A DNA stretch of 64,000 bases from Tindallia sp. (GTDB lineage: Bacteria; Bacillota; Clostridia; Peptostreptococcales; Tindalliaceae), in contig SLLE01000076.1 of assembly GCA_007134225.1 (NCBI GenBank), positions 79,111 through 143,110 of the forward strand, read 5' to 3'. A program made the translations under genes and the position numbers. This document shows, piece by piece, positions 2,017 to 40,300 of the stretch. The notes beneath the pieces are model-generated. The model was not told the DNA's origin, ran no database searches, and saw nothing but the letters and a program-made list of their open reading frames with translations. How positions within the stretch are numbered: position 1 is the first letter of the stretch; each line of letters starts with the position of its first letter.

Positions 2017-2135
2017 ACAAAAGATAGTAAATTATTCGTTATATATTTAACGAATTTTGCGTAATTCGCATAAAAAAACGACCGCTTCACAAACAGCCGT
2101 CTTGAAGATTTTATAGTATGAAGTTTTTTTTGGAA

Positions 2136-2523
2136 GAGCGAGTAAACCTATAAGCCGAGTTCTGTATTTGATAGTCATCTATCTAGGCCTGCAGTTACCA
2201 GCAGGCTCAAGCAACCTACCACGGGACACGACGGGCAGCCGCTACCTTGTCCCTACTTGGTCTTGCTCCGGATGGGGTTTACATAGCCAGCCTGTCGCCA
2301 GACTGCTGGTGAGCTCTTACCTCACCTTTCCACCCTTACCCGGCACCTAAAACAGAATAACCTTTAAGTTTCATAAACTACTCTGTCTTAGGTGCCGGGC
2401 GGTATTTCTCTGTTGCACTATCCTTAGAGTCGCCTCCACTGGGGATTACCCAGCATCCTGCCCTATGGAGCTCGGACTTTCCTCGTCATCAATGGATGCC
2501 GTGACTATCTGGTTTACTCGCTC
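2136..2523 (-). ncRNA. rnpB: RNase P RNA, bacterial type A-like
   Basis: Minus strand GAGGAAAGTCCGAGCTCC, AGGGTGAAAAGGTGAGGTAAGAGCTCACC-like core, 5' GAGCGAGTAAACC pairing with 3' GGTTTACTCGCTC. Confidence 0.92.
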
Positions 2524-15964: not shown

Positions 15965-16165
15965 TGTTCAAAAAAATGCCTTTCATCCCAATAAAACCTA
16001 GGGACGAAAGACATATAACCTTCCGCGGTTCCACCCTATTTGACACAATGCTCGTGTCCACTTTGTCCTTAAGCTCCGAAGCGCCCTTCACACCTATCCG
16101 GTACCAGGCTTTCACTCTTCCCGGCTCGCTTCAACCTTCCAGCATGTTACTCCTCTTCTTCATCG
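15965..16165 (-). promoter_or_regulatory. T-box leader of glyS, Gly specifier (GGC at 16085-16083)
   Basis: Minus strand GTGAAGGGCGCTTCGGAGC specifier context; GGTGGAACCGCGG T-box; terminator GTCTTTCGTCCCTAGGTTTTATTGGGATGAAAGGC. Confidence 0.9.
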
Positions 16166-16267
16166 CTCTACAAGTATTAATGATACTTATAATGAATGTA
16201 TCAGATTCAGATAAAACTGTCAATTTTAGTATTCAAAGTCTTCTGGTAACAAGGTCTTTTCTTCAGC

Positions 16268-19877: not shown

Positions 19878-21563
19878 TTAACCCTGCGACTCTTCTGTTA
19901 TCAGATCTTTAATGGCTGCTCCAGGTGGTACCATAGGAAAAACCTTATCATCCGGATCAATAGGACAATGGATCACAACGGGCACTTTCTGGGCCAATGC
20001 TTCTTTCAATACCGGTTCCACATCCTCAATTTTTTCTAATTTGTATCCTTTCGCACCGTAAGCTTCTGCCAGTTTGACAAAGTCAGTGCATCGGTTACGG
20101 TCTGTTTGGGAATAGCGCTTATCAAAGAACAAATCCTGCCACTGTCGCACCATCCCTAGAACCTGATTATCCAGAACAATCACAACAACTGGCAGTTCAT
20201 AATGAACGGCAGTAGCCAGCTCATTATTGTTCATGCAAAAGCTTCCATCTCCTGCAATATTAACTACAATTTTATCCGGATTACCAAGTTTTGCTCCAAG
20301 GCTGGCCCCCAGTCCATATCCCATGGTTCCAAGCCCTCCTGACGAGAGAAAGGTTCTTGGCAAAACATAGTCATAGTACTGCGCTGACCACATTTGACTT
20401 TGACCGACTTCTGTTGTGATAATCGCTTTACCAGAAGTTAACTCGCTAAGCTTTCGAATGATATAGTGTGGCTTAATGCTTCCATTCTGATTGCAGGCCA
20501 GTGGATACTGCTTTTTCCAGTAAATAATTTGTTCTTTCCATTCGAGCCTATGCATCCTTGTTTCCGTCGTTAGCTTTTCATTCAACCTTTTTAGTGAAGC
20601 TTTTACATCCCCGGCTACATGGTAAAAAGCCCTTACATTTTTATTAATTTCAGCCGGATCAACGTCTATATGAACGATATTCGCTTCCTCAGCAAACATT
20701 TTTGTGTTACTGGTAATGCGGTCACTAAATCTTGACCCGACTGCAATAAACAAATCACATTCTGATGATGCTAAGTTGGATGTCTTACTCCCGTGCATAC
20801 CAATCATCCCTGTGAACAGCTCATGATTTGTTGGAACTCCTCCAAGCCCCATTAGCGTCGAAGATACCGGTGATTGCATTTTTTCAACCAGCTCAAGGGC
20901 CTCTACGGCAGCATCGGCTCGGATAACACCACCACCAGTGAGAATAAACGGCTTTTTCGCTTCTTTAATGAGTGAGACAACCGCATCCAAAGTCTCTTCA
21001 CAGATTTCCTCGGTATGCTCCATAATCGGCTCAGCTTCTTCTTTTTCATACTCAGCCATTGCTGATGTAACATCCTTTGGTATATCAATCAGAACTGGTC
21101 CTGGGCGTCCATCCTGAGCAATATAAAAGGCTTTTCTAACGGTTTTTGCCAGGTCTTTCACGTTTTTTACAATAAAGTTATGTTTTGTAATCGGCATCGT
21201 AATTCCGGTAATATCAACTTCCTGGAAGCTATCTTTGCCCAACAATGCTACAGGCACATTTCCTGTGATAGCAACCATGGGAACTGAGTCCATATAGGCG
21301 GTAGCGATACCAGTTACAAGATTTGTAGCACCGGGACCAGACGTAGCAATGCATACCCCAACTTTTCCCGTTGATCTTGCATAGCCGTCTGCAGCATGCG
21401 ACGCTCCCTGTTCGTGAGCAGTTAAAATGTGTCTGATACGGTCTTGGTACTCATAGATTGCATCATAGATATTGATGACCGCTCCACCAGGATAACCAAA
21501 TATGGTATCAACCTGTTGCTCCAACAAACATTCCATCAAGATTTGAGATCCATTTAAACGCAT
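19878..21563 (-). CDS. ilvB: Acetolactate synthase large subunit (operon copy)
   Basis: MRLNGSQILMECLLEQQVDTIFGYPGGAVINIYDAI; GDGSFCMNNNELATAV. Confidence 0.95.
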   Translation of the reverse strand: MRLNGSQILMECLLEQQVDTIFGYPGGAVINIYDAIYEYQDRIRHILTAHEQGASHAADGYARSTGKVGVCIATSGPGATNLVTGIATAYMDSVPMVAITGNVPVALLGKDSFQEVDITGITMPITKHNFIVKNVKDLAKTVRKAFYIAQDGRPGPVLIDIPKDVTSAMAEYEKEEAEPIMEHTEEICEETLDAVVSLIKEAKKPFILTGGGVIRADAAVEALELVEKMQSPVSSTLMGLGGVPTNHELFTGMIGMHGSKTSNLASSECDLFIAVGSRFSDRITSNTKMFAEEANIVHIDVDPAEINKNVRAFYHVAGDVKASLKRLNEKLTTETRMHRLEWKEQIIYWKKQYPLACNQNGSIKPHYIIRKLSELTSGKAIITTEVGQSQMWSAQYYDYVLPRTFLSSGGLGTMGYGLGASLGAKLGNPDKIVVNIAGDGSFCMNNNELATAVHYELPVVVIVLDNQVLGMVRQWQDLFFDKRYSQTDRNRCTDFVKLAEAYGAKGYKLEKIEDVEPVLKEALAQKVPVVIHCPIDPDDKVFPMVPPGAAIKDLITEESQG

Positions 21564-21582
21564 TGAGTGACACACCTTTCCT

Positions 21583-22665
21583 TTACATGGTTTTCATTGT
21601 ATGGAGGACCACCTGTCCCATTTCTTCCGTACTGACCATTTTGGTTCCTTCGCTGTATATATCCGCTGTTCGATACCCTTTGTTCAGCACCTCTTCCACT
21701 GCATTTTCAATAAGGTTTGCTTCCTGCATCATATCAAAAGAAGTGCGCAACATCATGGCACATGACAAGATCATTGCCAAAGGGTTTGCTTTGTTTTCAC
21801 CTGCAATATCAGGAGCAGAACCATGAATTGGCTCATACATTCCTTTTTGATCTGCACTCAGGCTGGCTGATGGCAACATGCCAATGGATCCTGTAATCAT
21901 GCTTACTTCATCAGACAAAATATCTCCAAACATATTCCCGGTTACGATCACATCAAACTGACCAGGATTACGAACCAACTGCATCGCCGCATTATCAACA
22001 TACATATGATCTAAGGTCACGTCCGGGTAGTTCACCGCTTCTTCGACTACGATCTTTCTCCATAATCTGGAATTTTCCAGCACATTAGCTTTGTCGACGC
22101 TCATCAATTTCTTGTTCCTCTTCAATGCCATCTCAAATGCAATCTTTGCGATTCTTCTTACTTCGTCTTCATGATAGAACATGGTGTCGTAGGCAGCTTC
22201 CTTACCATCACCATCAATTATTGTTCCCTGCTTGCCGAAATAAATACCTCCAGTTAACTCGCGGACCACCATCACATCCAATCCATTCTCCACAATCGAT
22301 GGTTTTAACGGACAGGAGTCGCTCAAGGCTGGAAACAAAATTGCAGGCCTCAGATTGGCAAATAATTCTAATTCTTTCCGCAGACCCAGCAATGCTTTTT
22401 CGGGTCGTTTCTGCCCATCAAGATGATCCCATTTAGGGCCGCCCAAAGCGCCAAGTAGAACGGCATCGGCATCCTTGCATGTTTCCAGTGTTTTAGGAGG
22501 AAGTGGAACCCCTTCCTGATCAATTGCTGCACCACCAGCTAAACATTCATTTATTTCGAATTGGTGTCCAAATACTTTTTCAACATATTCCAAAATAGCA
22601 AGTGTCTGCTGCATTACTTCCGGTCCAATGCCGTCACCCGGAATCACGGCAATTTTTTTATACAT
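21583..22665 (-). CDS. leuB: 3-isopropylmalate dehydrogenase
   Basis: [56 protein letters not shown]. Confidence 0.97.
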
Positions 22666-22686
22666 ATGGATCCACTCCCTCAATGA

Positions 22687-23178
22687 TTATTTCAATTGTT
22701 GTTTTACATGATTCACCAGACCATCCGCTTCAATAATTTTTTGAATGAATGGCGGAAAAGGCTGTGTCTCGTAGGTTTTATTTTGGGTTATGTTTACAAT
22801 AATCCCTTTTTTAAAGTCTACTTCCAATTTATCATCCGCTTTAATTTCTTCGACCGCTACTTCACACTCCAGAATAGGTAACCCAATGTTAATTGCGTTC
22901 CTGTAAAAAATTCGTGCAAATGTTTTCGCAATGACACAGGATATTCCAGATGACTTAATTGCCAGAGGTGCATGTTCTCTTGAAGAACCACAACCAAAAT
23001 TTTTCCCGGCAACAATCATATCACCTTTGGCTACTTTATGCACAAAATTCGAATCAATATCTTCCATACAGTGACTTGCAAGTTCTTGCGGATCTGAAGT
23101 ATTGAGGTGTCTGGCTGGAATAATAACATCCGTATCTACATTGTTGCCATAAACAAACGCTTTTCCTTTTGCAATCAT
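22687..23178 (-). CDS. leuD: 3-isopropylmalate dehydratase small subunit
   Basis: 163 aa; [35 protein letters not shown]. Confidence 0.96.
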
Positions 23179-23230
23179 CTTTTCACTCCCTCTATCAATT
23201 AGTGTCTGTTATCCTTCCGTTTAAATGTTC

Positions 23231-24490
23231 TTATACTGAGTCCGGTCCGATAATTTTTCCCGCAATAGCGGAAGCTGCTGCAACTGCTGGACTCGCAAGA
23301 TAAACTTCCGATTCAGGGTGTCCCATTCTTCCTACAAAATTTCTATTTGTGGTCGCAACCGCTCTTTCTCCCTTTGCCAAGATTCCCATATGACCTCCCA
23401 GACAAGGACCACAGGTTGGCGTACTAACAATGCCACCGGCTTCGATGAAAATTTCGATAAGACCTTCTTTCATCGCCTGCAAATAAATTTTTTGTGTTGC
23501 CGGGAATACAATCAATCGCATATTTTTCGCCACTTTTTTCCCTTTAAGAATTTTTGCAGCTGCACGCAGGTCTTCAATTCTGCCATTGGTACAAGAACCG
23601 ATGACTACCTGGTCAATTTCAACCTCACCAACTTTATCAATGGATCGCGTATTATCAGGCAAATGAGGAAATGAAACCGTCAAGGGAATCTGACTTAGGT
23701 CAAGTTCATAGGTTAATTCATATTCTGCGTCTTCATCCGGCTCATAAACAGTATATTCTTTGGTAGAATGCGCTTTAACATATTCCAGTGTCTTATCATC
23801 CACAGGGAAAATTCCATTTTTAGCCCCTGCTTCGATAGCCATGTTTGCAATCGTGAATCGGTCGTCCATTGAGAGGCTAGCTATGCCTTCTCCGGTAAAT
23901 TCCATTGATTTGTATCGTGCACCATCAACGCCAATCATCCCGATGATATGGAGGATAAGATCTTTGCCGCTGACAGGTGGCTTTAAAGAACCTGTCAAGT
24001 GAAATCTGAGAGCTGATGGCACCCTGAACCACCCTTTACCAGTTGCCATACCGGCTGCCATATCTGTGCTTCCTATTCCCGTCGAGAAGGCACCCAAAGC
24101 ACCATAGGTGCATGTGTGCGAATCTGCTCCAATTACAACATCCCCGGGAACCACCAGTCCCTTTTCCGGTAGAAGCGCATGTTCGATCCCCATTTCACCA
24201 ATTTCAAAATAGTTTGTAATATCCTGCTCTACAGCAAACTCTCTTAAAATCTTACAGTTCTCAGCTGACTTGATGTCTTTGTTCGGTGTGAAATGATCGG
24301 GCACAAGAGCGACTTTATCCTTATGAAAAACATTTTTTGCACCCATTTTTTCAAATTCTTTCAAAGCAACCGGAGCCGTTATATCATTCCCAAGAACCAA
24401 ATCCAATTCCGCTTCAATCAATTCACCAGCGGTAACAATTTCTTTTCCGGCATGTTTTGCCATTATTTTTTGCGTCATTGTCATTCCCAT
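23231..24490 (-). CDS. leuC: 3-isopropylmalate dehydratase large subunit
   Basis: 419 aa; [50 protein letters not shown]. Confidence 0.97.
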
Positions 24491-24507
24491 TAATATACTC
24501 CTCTCCT

Positions 24508-26106
24508 TTACATATAGGCACTTACTTTTTCTTCGATATTTTTGATCAGCTTATACTCCATGGAGTCTACCAGTGCAATCCAGCTAGCCTCAATAATATC
24601 AGTAGATACGCCAACATTGCTCCAGAAATGCTTTCCGTCGCTGGATTCAATTAGTACTCTAACTTTTGAACCAGTGGCCGTTCTGGTATCAAGAACACGA
24701 ACTTTGTAATCTGTCAAATATACTTCTTTCAATTCAGGATAAAAAGCTTCCAATGCTTTACGCAGCGCTTTATCCAAGGCATTTACTGGACCGTTCCCTT
24801 CTGCCACCGTAAGCTCCTCTTTTCCGTCTACTTCTATCTTAACAATGGCAGATGTTCCACTTTTGCCATTTGATGTCTGCTCTCCAATGATCTTAAAATG
24901 GTCCAAGGTAAAGAATGGCTTATATTTTCCAAGGCTCTTGCGAATGATAAGTTCAAAACTGCTTTCTGCTCCTTCAAACTGATAACCTTGATGTTCCATC
25001 TCTTTTAAGCGATCAACAATTTCTTTTGTCTCTTTGGAGTTTTTATTAATATCTGGATTTACCTTTTTAATCTTTGATAAAATAGTGCTTCTCCCCGCTA
25101 CTTCCGACATTAAAAATCTTCTTTTATTACCTATTTTTGTTGGATCAACATGCTCAAATGATTTCTCATTTTTATTAACACCGTCAATATGCATTCCACC
25201 TTTATGGGCAAATGCGCTATATCCAATGAATGGGAGTCTTTCATTGAGGGCTACATTGGAAATTTCCGCAATATAACGAGCCGTCGGTGTCATTTCTGCT
25301 AAACTGCTATCCGCGAGACATTGATACCCTTTTTTTAACTGAAGATTGCCAATGACACTGCACAAATTCACATTTCCACATCTTTCACCAAAGCCGATAT
25401 AGGTACCCTGAACATGGCGAGCACCAGCGTCAACAGCACGTATGGTGTTGGCAACCGCCATACCGCCATCATCATGGCAGTGAATGCCTACGTTGTTACC
25501 CAGCTCTTTCAATACGCGACTGGTTGCCTCATGTATTTCCTCTGGAAAAGCTCCGCCATTCGTATCGCATAAAACAAGCCAATCTGCACCACCATCTTTT
25601 GCAGCTTTTAAGGCTTTCATAGCGTACTCAGCATTTTCCTTATACCCATCAAAAAAATGTTCTGCATCAAAGACAACTTCTTTTCCCGCTTTTTTGAAGT
25701 GCTGCATCGTATCCTGGATCATCGCCAAGTTTTCCTCCAGCGTCGTGTTGATGATGTCCGTCACATGAAAATCCCAGGTTTTTCCAAAAATAGCAACACA
25801 TGGCGTTTCTGCCATCATTAAGTTCTTTAAGTTTTCATCCTCTTCCGGCTTCACATGAGGACGTCTTGTACTGCCAAAGGCTGTTAAGCGGGCCTGCTTC
25901 AATTTTAATTTTTTTGCGTACTCAAAAAATTCAAGATCTTTTGGGTTTGAACCAGGATTTCCCGCTTCTATATAATGAACTCCCAGCTCGTCCAATGCTT
26001 TTGTAATTTTGATTTTATCTTCCACCGAAAATGATATCGCTTCTGCCTGAGCACCATCTCTTAGCGTAGAATCAAATACATGAATTCTGTTTTGCAATCC
26101 TTTCAC
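24508..26106 (-). CDS. cimA: (R)-citramalate synthase
   Basis: 532 aa; [50 protein letters not shown], typical of CimA rather than LeuA. Confidence 0.9.
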
Positions 26107-27635
26107 GCTCCCGCCTTTTCTTCATCTTCATTACTTATCATGCGATTGATCGCGTTAACATATGCTTTAATGCTGGCCTCGATCACATCCGTACTGATTC
26201 CGCTGCCGTGATACAATTCGTTATCTCTTCTTATTTGAACAAAGGCTTCTCCTTGAGCGTCTTCACCTTCCGTAATAGCCTGCAGCGAATAATCGTCCAA
26301 TTTATACTCTTTTCCGACCAGCTGATCAATGGCTCTAAATGCTGCATAGATTGGTCCGGAACCAGTGGAAACAGCCTCCAAATCTTTATCAAAATTTTTC
26401 AGCTTCACCGTTGCCGTCGCCGTCATATAATTACCGCAGTTAATAACAAATTGTTCAAGTTTGAAATACTCTTCCATTTTTAGGGTTTTATCTTTAATCA
26501 ATGCTTCCAAATCTTTGTTGTAGACCACTTTTTTCTTGTCTGCCAATTCCTTAAAGGACTGGAATACATTATCCAGTGTCTGCTTATCCAGTTCATACCC
26601 CATGGATTGCATTCGATCTTCAAAAGCGTGTCGTCCTGAATGTTTGCCCAATACCAACTGATATTGGTGTAACCCGACAGACTCCGGTGTCATTATTTCA
26701 TAGGTGCTCTTATTCGCTAAAATGCCATGCTGATGGATCCCCGACTCATGCGCAAAAGCGTTCTCACCAACGATTGCTTTATTTCTTTGTACTTTCATTC
26801 CTGTCACTTGACTAAGCAGTCGACTGGCCGGATAAATCTGCTCTGTCACCACATTGGTTTTATTCTGATAAAAATCATACCTGGTTTGCAAGGCCATAAC
26901 AATTTCTTCCATTGCTGCGTTTCCGGCACGTTCCCCAATACCATTGATGGTACACTCCAATTGGCCGGCTCCAGCTTTGGCTGCTGCCAGCGTGTTCGCA
27001 ACAGCCATCCCCAAGTCATTGTGACAGTGCACGGCAATGGTTGCTTTGTCAATGCTTGGAACATTTTCTTTGATTCCTTTTATCAGAGCAGTAAATTCAT
27101 CAGGTGTCGTGTAACCAACCGTATCTGGCACATTAATGACTTTTGCACCCGCTTGAATAACAGCTTCAAAAATCTTGTAAAGAAATTCCGGTTGACTTCT
27201 GGTTGCGTCTTCTGCTGAAAATTGGACATCATCCAAATATGATTTTGCATGACGCACCATATCAACAGCTCGTTCCAGTACTTTTTCCGGCGTGGTTTTC
27301 AGTTTATATTTCATATGAATATCCGATGTTGCGATGAATGTATGAATTCTGGGTGCCTCAGCATTTTTAACAGCTTCGTATGCTCGATCAATATCTTGAG
27401 GTAGTGTTCGGGCCAAACTGGCGACCCGAACATCTCTTACCGTTTCCGCTACCGCTTTTATGGCTTCAAAATCTCCAGGAGAAGCAATGGCGAATCCTGC
27501 TTCAATGACATCCACTTTCAATTTTTCCAGCTGTTTGGCCATTTCAAGCTTTTCTTTTAAATTCATGCTGCATCCTGGTGACTGCTCCCCGTCACGCAAA
27601 GTGGTATCAAAAATTTTAATACTACTTTCATTCAT
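26103..27635 (-). CDS. leuA: 2-isopropylmalate synthase
   Basis: 510 aa; [41 protein letters not shown]. Confidence 0.95.
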
Positions 27636-27654
27636 GATTACTCACTCCTTACCA

Positions 27655-28647
27655 TTACTTTTTTAACCAACTCATCATTTTTCTCAAATCTTTCCCTACA
27701 ACTTCAACCGGATGCTCTGCTTCCAGCTTTCTTCTAGCGTTAAAGCTTGGACGATTGGCCTGGTTTTCCAGAATCCAGTTTTTTGCAAAGGTACCGTCCT
27801 GAACTTCTTTCAATACTTTTCTCATTTCATTTTTTGTATCTTCTGTCACAATTCGCTCACCTACACTATAATCACCATATTCAGCTGTATCACTGACAGA
27901 ATAACGCATATAGCTTAATCCACCCTCATTGATCAGGTCAATAATCAGCTTCATTTCATGTAAGCACTCAAAATAGGCACTTTCCGGCTGGTATCCCGCT
28001 TCAACCAATACTTCAAACCCTGCTTTCATTAAAGCAGTGACTCCGCCGCACAGTACCGCTTGCTCTCCAAATAGATCCGTTTCTGTCTCTTCCTGGAAGG
28101 TTGTTTCAAGCACACCGGCTCTGGCACCGCCAATTCCAGCTGCATATGCCAATCCTACTTCCACTGTATCTCCTGTAACGTCCTGGTATACTGCAACCAA
28201 ACACGGAACGCCTTTACCTTCCTGATACTGACTCCGAACTGTATGTCCCGGTCCCTTTGGAGCAACCATGAAAACATTAACGTCTTCCGGCGGTACCACC
28301 TGTCCATAATGAATGTTAAAACCGTGAGCAAAAACAAGATAGTTGCCTGGCTCCAGGTTTGGTTCAATGCTCTCTTTGTATAATTGAGGTTGTTTCTCGT
28401 CGTTGATTAGCATAATGACTACATCCGCCTGCGCCGCCGCTTTTCCTGCAATATCAACTTTCAAACCTGCTTCTTCTGCTTTTGGCCAGGATTTACTTCC
28501 TTCATACAATCCAACGATGACATCTATACCTGATTCGTGAAGGTTCAACGCATGTGCATGTCCCTGACTTCCATAACCAATTACCGCTACCTTTTTACCT
28601 TGCAGTACATCCATTTTACATTCATTTTCATAATACATTTTAGCCAT
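27655..28647 (-). CDS. ilvC: Ketol-acid reductoisomerase
   Basis: 330 aa; [38 protein letters not shown]. Confidence 0.97.
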
Positions 28648-28667: not shown

Positions 28668-29150
28668 TTAACGATCTCTGCGACCCAGCGCAGTAAGACC
28701 GGTTCTAACAATCTCACGTATCCCATAAGGTTCCATCAATTCGATAAATGCTTCAATTTTGTTATGATCTCCTGTTACCTCCAAAATCACACAATCCGTT
28801 GCAACATCAATTACCTTTCCTCTGAAGATTTCCACCACTTCAAGAATAGATGCTCGTGTCTTCTCGTCGGTATTAACTTTTATTAAAGCAAGCTCCCTGT
28901 AAACAGACAATTCGGGTTTAAGCTCTTTAATACTGACAACATCGATCAGTTTATTAAGCTGCTTTTGAATTTGCTCCAGCACTTCCGGATCTCCTTTGAC
29001 CACCAGAGTGATGCGTGTCATTCCCGGCAATTCAGTACTGCCGGAAGAAAAGCTTTCGATGTTATAACCTCTTCGCGTAAACAGTCCGGAGATTCGGCTG
29101 GTTACCCCCGGCTGGTCCTCGACCAGCAATGACAACACATAATTATCCAT
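28668..29150 (-). CDS. ilvN: Acetolactate synthase small subunit
   Basis: MDNYVLSLLVEDQPGVTSRISGLFTRRGYNIESFS; AAAGGAGG RBS before the 29150 start. Confidence 0.95.
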   Translation of the reverse strand: MDNYVLSLLVEDQPGVTSRISGLFTRRGYNIESFSSGSTELPGMTRITLVVKGDPEVLEQIQKQLNKLIDVVSIKELKPELSVYRELALIKVNTDEKTRASILEVVEIFRGKVIDVATDCVILEVTGDHNKIEAFIELMEPYGIREIVRTGLTALGRRDR

Positions 29151-29179
29151 TCTTACGCCTCCTTTTTTCATTAAAAAAG

Positions 29180-29645
29180 CCCTCATCTCTGCCTTTAGCA
29201 GGGACGAGGACTATTCCGCGCGTTACCACCCTAATTGTTTTCACCAAAAGTGAAAACCACTCAAATCAGGTTCAATCAAACCCTTAGTCTATAACGGGAC
29301 TTGCCGATTACCCTTACTCATTTTCAGGGTAACTGCTCCGGAGCGAGTCGCATTTTACAGCAGTACCAGTTTTCAGCAGCCACTGGCTCTCTATAACTGC
29401 ATTGAATAAAACACTAACTCCATCAAAACGCATTTGCCTGCTCTTCAAATAGAAAAGCGTAAATTCAGGTTCAATCAAACCTTAAGCCTTTAACGGGGCT
29501 ACCCGATTATCCTTACTCTTTTTTCCGGACAACTGCTCGGGAGGGATTCTAACGATCCAACAGTATCGGTTCTCAGCGAACACCGACTCTCTGAAACTGT
29601 ATTGTTAATCATTACTGTCTCCGTCTGTGCATTTTGTTGTGTTTA
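29180..29645 (-). promoter_or_regulatory. Tandem T-box leader: Ile (ATC) module then Leu (CTC) module with one antiterminator/terminator
   Basis: Two homologous segments (about 29460-29640 and 29235-29410), each with AGAGAG, GAGTAAGG.TAATCGG...CCCGTTA and GGTTTGATTGAACCTGA; specifiers ATC at 29547-29545 and CTC at 29347-29345; only one AGGGTGGTAACGCGCGG T-box plus terminator, near 29190-29235. Confidence 0.85.
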
Positions 29646-29659
29646 ATAATTAAATCGTA

Positions 29660-29690
29660 TTTTAACAGGCTTTCTATTCGTTGTCAACAG
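29660..29690 (-). promoter_or_regulatory. Putative sigma-A promoter of the ilv-leu leader
   Basis: Minus strand TTGACA-17 nt-TAAAAT. Confidence 0.65.
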
Positions 29691-40033: not shown

Positions 40034-40300
40034 AAAAAGCCTTTTCATCCTTATATCGATAAGGACGAAAAGACTTCGCGGTACCACCCTATTTCCTCAC
40101 TCTCATCTAAGTAAGCGCGAGGCTCTCTAGAGGAATATAACGGTTCCCATTCCGTCTGAACGTACACACTCTAATCGCTTCCGCTCAGATGCTCTGAAGC
40201 TACTTCGACAACCAGTCATCCTAAAACCTCTCAGCCATGGGTTTTATTCTCTGTAGGTTCTTTTGTTGCCTACTCTTCTTCTTCATCGCTACCATCTTTC
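40034..40300 (-). promoter_or_regulatory. T-box leader of valS, Val specifier (GTA at 40203-40201)
   Basis: Minus strand GTCGAAGTAGCTTCAGAGC; AGGGTGGTACCGCGAAG; terminator TCTTTTCGTCCTTATCGATATAAGGATGAAAAGGCTTTTTT. Confidence 0.92.

Follow-up and report, generated by a model that had tools for sequence, protein, structure and literature searches.

On the minus strand of a 64,000-nucleotide stretch of DNA from Tindallia sp. (contig SLLE01000076.1; the whole stretch analyzed, hereafter the window), the leader 5' of ilvN carries two T-box sensor modules in series, Ile first and Leu second, and it raises the question of whether two tRNAs can be read by one antiterminator and with which logic. A covariance search matched RF00230 twice, in line with the preliminary description, which had proposed two leader modules in series on this strand. 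Module 2 (29197-29435, minus strand) matched with 125.6 bits and an E-value of 2.1e-29 over model positions 1-219 of 219, and module 1 (29477-29636, minus strand) was recovered at a permissive threshold with 80.1 bits and an E-value of 1.1e-17. The score of module 1 lies below the RF00230 gathering score of 93, and 56 model positions, corresponding to stem III and the antiterminator, are deleted in its alignment. Chance similarity is ruled out by the E-values and by the covariation described below. Module 2 is thus a T-box leader matched at full length above the gathering score, with T-box and terminator present. Module 1 contains every part of the sensor (stem I, specifier, T-loops, stem II and stem IIA/B), and neither the RF00230 alignment nor the terminator scan revealed in it an antiterminator with a T-box sequence and a competing terminator. 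The leader therefore falls under the definition of a partially tandem T-box, in which two or more sensors precede a single regulatory platform (PMC12452182). Two other assignments were rejected: complete tandem T-boxes, in which every unit brings an expression platform of its own, because module 1 has none, and the two-codon T-box, with overlapping codons in one specifier loop, because the leader has two separate stem I elements that each bear a specifier.

The leader is preceded by a promoter with a -35 box TTGACA (29682-29687) and a -10 box TAAAAT (29659-29664) on the minus strand, separated by a 17-nt spacer and conserved in seven genomes. It is the only promoter found for both modules, and a scan of the intermodule stretch detected neither a terminator-like site nor a promoter pair. 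Module 1, supported by RF00230 and covariation, comprises stem I with the apical T-loop AGAGA (29588-29592; partner UGAGA, 29571-29575), the Ile specifier AUC (29545-29547), stem II with an invariant AGUA S-turn (29514-29517) and the stem IIA/B pseudoknot (CGG...CCGUUA, the F-box, 29491-29505), the last assigned by motif invariance and covariation. An accessory hairpin, AGGUU-UGAUUG-AACCU (arms a1 and b1, 29467-29482), is defined by the alignment of leaders and by covariation. Module 2, likewise supported by RF00230 and covariation, has its apical T-loop AGAGA at 29388-29392 (from motif position), the Leu specifier CUC at 29345-29347, stem IIA/B with the F-box at 29292-29306 (from motif alignment) and, in the alignment of leaders, its own accessory hairpin GGGUU-UGAUUG-AACCU (arms a2 and b2, 29268-29283). 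Both specifiers, which had been read correctly as ATC and CTC, lie one base 5' of CUCC, which forms the 3' strand at the base of stem I and has GGAG as its partner. The AGAGA motif had been taken, as AGAGAG, for the base of stem I, and it is instead the apical T-loop. Stem III (29237-29257; RF00230 alignment and folding), the single antiterminator (29200-29232) with the T-box AGGGUGGUAACGCG at 29219-29232, and the single intrinsic terminator (29173-29209; -22.2 kcal/mol, z -5.3) follow in module 2, whose antiterminator alternative folds as expected. The RF00230 alignment and the terminator scan agree that T-box and terminator belong to the Leu module only, as had been claimed. Elsewhere in the window, two further T-boxes reach the gathering score (40058-40295 and 1715-1950), the second lying directly downstream of an RNase P class A RNA (2135-2520, minus strand). 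A sub-gathering T-box of 85.8 bits (15997-16172, minus strand), in which stem I seems short and without the AGAGA T-loop (glyQS-like), lies 5' of an ORF resembling a glycyl-tRNA synthetase subunit.

The stretch between the modules was scrutinized for a cryptic terminator and antiterminator of module 1, which would turn the leader into a complete tandem and an AND gate. The preliminary description had drawn a weak hairpin at the end of module 1, followed by TTTT. This hairpin was mis-drawn: CAAATGCG belongs to the 5' strand of module 2 stem I, and CAAAUGCG is likewise part of that stem I. A better hairpin, GCUUUUC-UAUUU-GAAGAGC (29440-29458, minus strand), resembles stem III and occupies its expected place on folding, and these 19 nt are the one feature that speaks for a cryptic terminator. 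Against it, no U tract follows the hairpin, there is no T-box 14-mer and no Rfam match, and in the leader alignment the hairpin is confined to the Tindallia-type leaders and absent from the Anoxynatronum-type and G190 leaders, that is from two of the three lineages, which indicates that it is not a needed terminator. In the Anoxynatronum-type and G190 leaders the intermodule linker measures about 15 nt. We consider a complete tandem highly improbable.

To determine how widely the arrangement is shared we searched 60 related genomes at the DNA level. The whole leader was found in all three other members of the genus, with 81-84% identity, and, with 72-73% identity, in two members of a second Tindalliaceae genus, a third member of which has a leader cut by the contig end after module 1. 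Apart from this seventh leader, 6/6 Tindalliaceae leaders recovered in full keep the architecture and both specifiers. When 84,980 species were scanned with a pattern, Tindallia sp. MSAO_Bac2, Anoxynatronum buryatiense and the MAG S18.Bin088 were returned as relatives, together with the MAG DJKA99_ANT-F21_bin.21 from another family of the order, which shows an AUC specifier followed by CUC, a single T-box and an identical gene order. The two-sensor arrangement is conserved in related soda-lake Clostridia. The ATC, AGAGA, AGTA and CCGTTA motifs of module 1 are invariant in 8/8 sequences and the CTC of module 2 in 7/7. In module 1, 13 of 37 base pairs have changed on both sides, compared with 5.9 in shuffled alignments (0/500 shuffles reach 13), and in module 2 the count is 11 of 39. 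The compensatory changes in module 1 are as strong as those in module 2. This indicates that module 1 is a maintained RNA structure and not a relic. The preliminary description had named beforehand two observations that would speak against a two-input (Ile and Leu) reading, a full antiterminator/terminator in 29410-29470 and degradation of module 1 in relatives. The covariance model found no such platform, module 1 is intact with covarying stems in the relatives, and the two-input reading is supported. An alternative is that module 1 binds tRNA-Ile without any output in transcription, acting for example on mRNA stability only, or that it is the slowly decaying remnant of a complete Ile T-box. 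Module 1 does lack an antiterminator and terminator of its own, and the stem-III-like remnant persists, if only in the Tindallia-type leaders. However, every motif that contacts tRNA is unchanged in both families, whereas the adjoining linker has fully diverged, and the helices covary; we regard this explanation as improbable.

The arrangement appears to be rare. Among 391 Clostridia genomes, a covariance model of the junction gave scores of 170-177 bits for the two sampled genomes of Tindallia type and 68 bits or less at all other places, where the best loci were not partial tandems. A stricter two-module pattern matched only the genome of origin among 399 Bacillota genomes. The sensitivity of the exhaustive pattern is modest, both halves matching in 12 of 39 known T-boxes, so that further examples may have been missed. 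Six pattern matches (L086, L087, L090, L091, L093 and L094, in Paenibacillus, Bacillus, Lachnospiraceae, Curtanaerobium, Streptococcus and Chitinophagaceae) were rejected, the AGAGA lying beyond a single T-box or the T-box being absent. Adjacent pairs of model R1 matches in other Clostridia were also discarded, as they arise from single T-boxes. At another locus, L107 (G125:C30, minus strand), Rfam T-box matches at 970-1203 and 1536-1759 are separated by about 330 nt and possibly form a complete tandem, in which the upstream match carries AUC; none of the operon genes used as query was found in this 3.2 kb locus.

The genes downstream are those that had been claimed, cimA with leuABCD and ilvNCB. 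On the minus strand, ilvN (28668-29150, with a ribosome binding site at 29158-29165) is followed by ilvC, leuA, cimA, leuC, leuD, leuB and ilvB (19878-28647), and from gene identification the products of the operon are those for synthesis of Val, Leu and, by the citramalate route (cimA), Ile. In G002 (L156) the fused operon reads ilvN-ilvC-leuA-leuB-ilvB, and cimA, leuC and leuD were not seen in the 12 kb read there; both T-box sensors are still present. Other members of the order carry a single AUC T-box 5' of ilvNC (L024 and L033) and single CUC T-boxes 5' of leuA (L023, L026, L027, L030 and L105), and in G054 ilvC and leuA-leuC-leuD-leuB are on divergent transcripts. Apparently, fusion of the operons joined an Ile leader to a Leu leader and retained both sensors with one platform, which is the simplest account that we infer from these gene arrangements. 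In the sensor tree module 2 groups with the native Leu T-boxes, and an AU test of a single origin versus two for module 1 of Tindalliaceae and G190 gave p 0.165.

How might the two sensors act on one platform? We think it fairly probable that the leader is a partially tandem T-box in which the Ile and Leu sensors feed the same antiterminator and terminator, either tRNA opening the operon as in an OR gate. Judging from the position of the promoter, one transcript would begin 5' of module 1. By homology with ordinary T-boxes, uncharged tRNA-Leu on module 2 would stabilize the antiterminator, and uncharged tRNA-Ile on module 1 may also present its ACCA terminus to that same bulge of the T-box, which could lie within reach because module 2 is placed as if it had been inserted into the linker that joins module 1 to stem III. 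A shortage of Ile or of Leu alone would then switch the operon on. The genome contains genes for tRNA-Ile(GAU) and tRNA-Leu(GAG), both with A73 and ending A-CCA, so that each of the two acceptor ends can base-pair with UGGU in the leader's only T-box bulge. Complete T-boxes in series form an AND gate, because every terminator must be passed (an argument also made in PMC12452182), and leave the shortage of a single amino acid unanswered. One shared platform makes OR logic possible, and such logic is well matched to an operon on which the supply of several amino acids depends. The architecture allows a natural riboswitch OR gate, on with either ligand alone; the two inputs would share the antiterminator, presumably with this logic.

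The sole platform adjoins module 2 only, and a linker as short as that of the Anoxynatronum-type and G190 leaders would permit contacts between the modules. Both sensors could accordingly be functional with an AND-like or graded logic, module 1 leaving the antiterminator untouched and tRNA-Ile modulating folding, pausing or the binding of tRNA-Leu at module 2, in an allosteric or cooperative manner like that of tandem glycine aptamers. An AND gate or a pure Leu gate would, however, ignore Ile starvation although the fused operon makes Ile, and the separate ilvNC operons of the order have the Ile specifier alone. We find this alternative unlikely.

A structural route to the OR gate is suggested by the accessory hairpin repeated in the two modules, which may pair locally or with the copy in the other module so that the sensors alternate at one platform. 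With local pairing the Leu sensor would stand beside the antiterminator, and with exchange of the arms between modules the Leu sensor would be looped out and the Ile sensor brought immediately next to stem III and the antiterminator. The two hairpins can form one continuous helix because their loop self-pairs through G-U wobbles. By constrained minimum free energy, exchange and local forms are within 0.4 kcal/mol of each other in the window leader (G000), and the exchange helix is better by 0.4-5.2 kcal/mol in six other leaders, in which it is also the unconstrained minimum. Its pairing probability is 0.68-0.99 in six of seven leaders and 0.27 in G001. These energies come from a model that takes no account of the pseudoknot, K-turn, T-loops, tRNA or co-transcriptional order. 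When the loop was randomized the exchange helix usually became less favorable, and 3-28% of the random sequences matched the real loop. In G001 and G002 the loop portion of the exchange helix contains a mismatch, and the sole pair to covary in the hairpin of module 1 (A-U replaced by G-C in G190) favors local pairing. We put forward helix exchange tentatively, as a possible but doubtful mechanism. A conserved hairpin of the form (A/G)GGUU-UGAUNG-AACC follows the IIA/B pseudoknot in the Ile and Leu T-boxes of the order (both window copies, L023, L024, L025, L027 and L033); it lies outside the Rfam consensus, and its nearly invariant loop perhaps makes a tertiary contact. Since it also occurs in single Ile and Leu T-boxes, the idea that this repeated hairpin arose specifically in the tandem was rejected, and it was not invented for exchange.

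Compared with known systems, each sensor resembles the canonical transcriptional T-box (RF00230) in its stem I with AGAGA/UGxRA T-loops, specifier, stem II AGUA and IIA/B pseudoknot, and module 2 also in its stem III, T-box and terminator; the difference is that two sensors for different tRNAs here precede one antiterminator. Complete tandem T-boxes are common and occur in trp, thr and branched-chain amino acid operons (PMC12452182), and the pair of T-boxes in the C. difficile homoserine dehydrogenase leader is presumed to recognize two tRNAs (PMC11477304). These share with our leader the two sensors in series, but they have a terminator per unit and readthrough needs both tRNAs (AND). The two-codon T-box of Clostridium acetobutylicum gatCAB answers two tRNAs, Asn and Glu (Saad 2013, described in PMC4052509), as one leader would do here by its architecture; its two codons overlap in one stem I, whereas here there are two full sensors. 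Tandem glycine aptamers and the guanine-PRPP IMPLY gate (PMC9481103, PMC5912903) likewise join two aptamers to one expression platform, but these are small-molecule aptamers with other logic and not T-boxes. The T-box(Leu)/ppGpp tandem (PMC9481103) has two ON inputs 5' of branched-chain amino acid genes, with separate platforms and an AND gate. The arrangement is probably of the same kind as the "partially tandem T-boxes" of PMC7583486, where the passage that mentions them gives no example, specificity pair, conservation or mechanism and states their working as an open question. In the literature examined we found no mixed Ile/Leu pair with one platform, nor its conservation, the link to operon fusion or the exchange hypothesis; Vitreschak 2008 and Gutierrez-Preciado 2009 may list such leaders. 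The leader is thus a variant within the partially tandem T-boxes already mentioned, not a new class. The survey of tandem riboswitches by Sherlock et al. 2022 places OR among the gates not observed in nature and notes that it could arise from two interacting ON switches (PMC9481103). As a conserved and compact OR-gate candidate with two specificities, a fused Ile/Leu/Val operon as metabolic reason and a concrete structural hypothesis, the leader opens the questions of the partial-tandem mechanism and of a natural OR gate to testing with two tRNAs and a small set of mutants.
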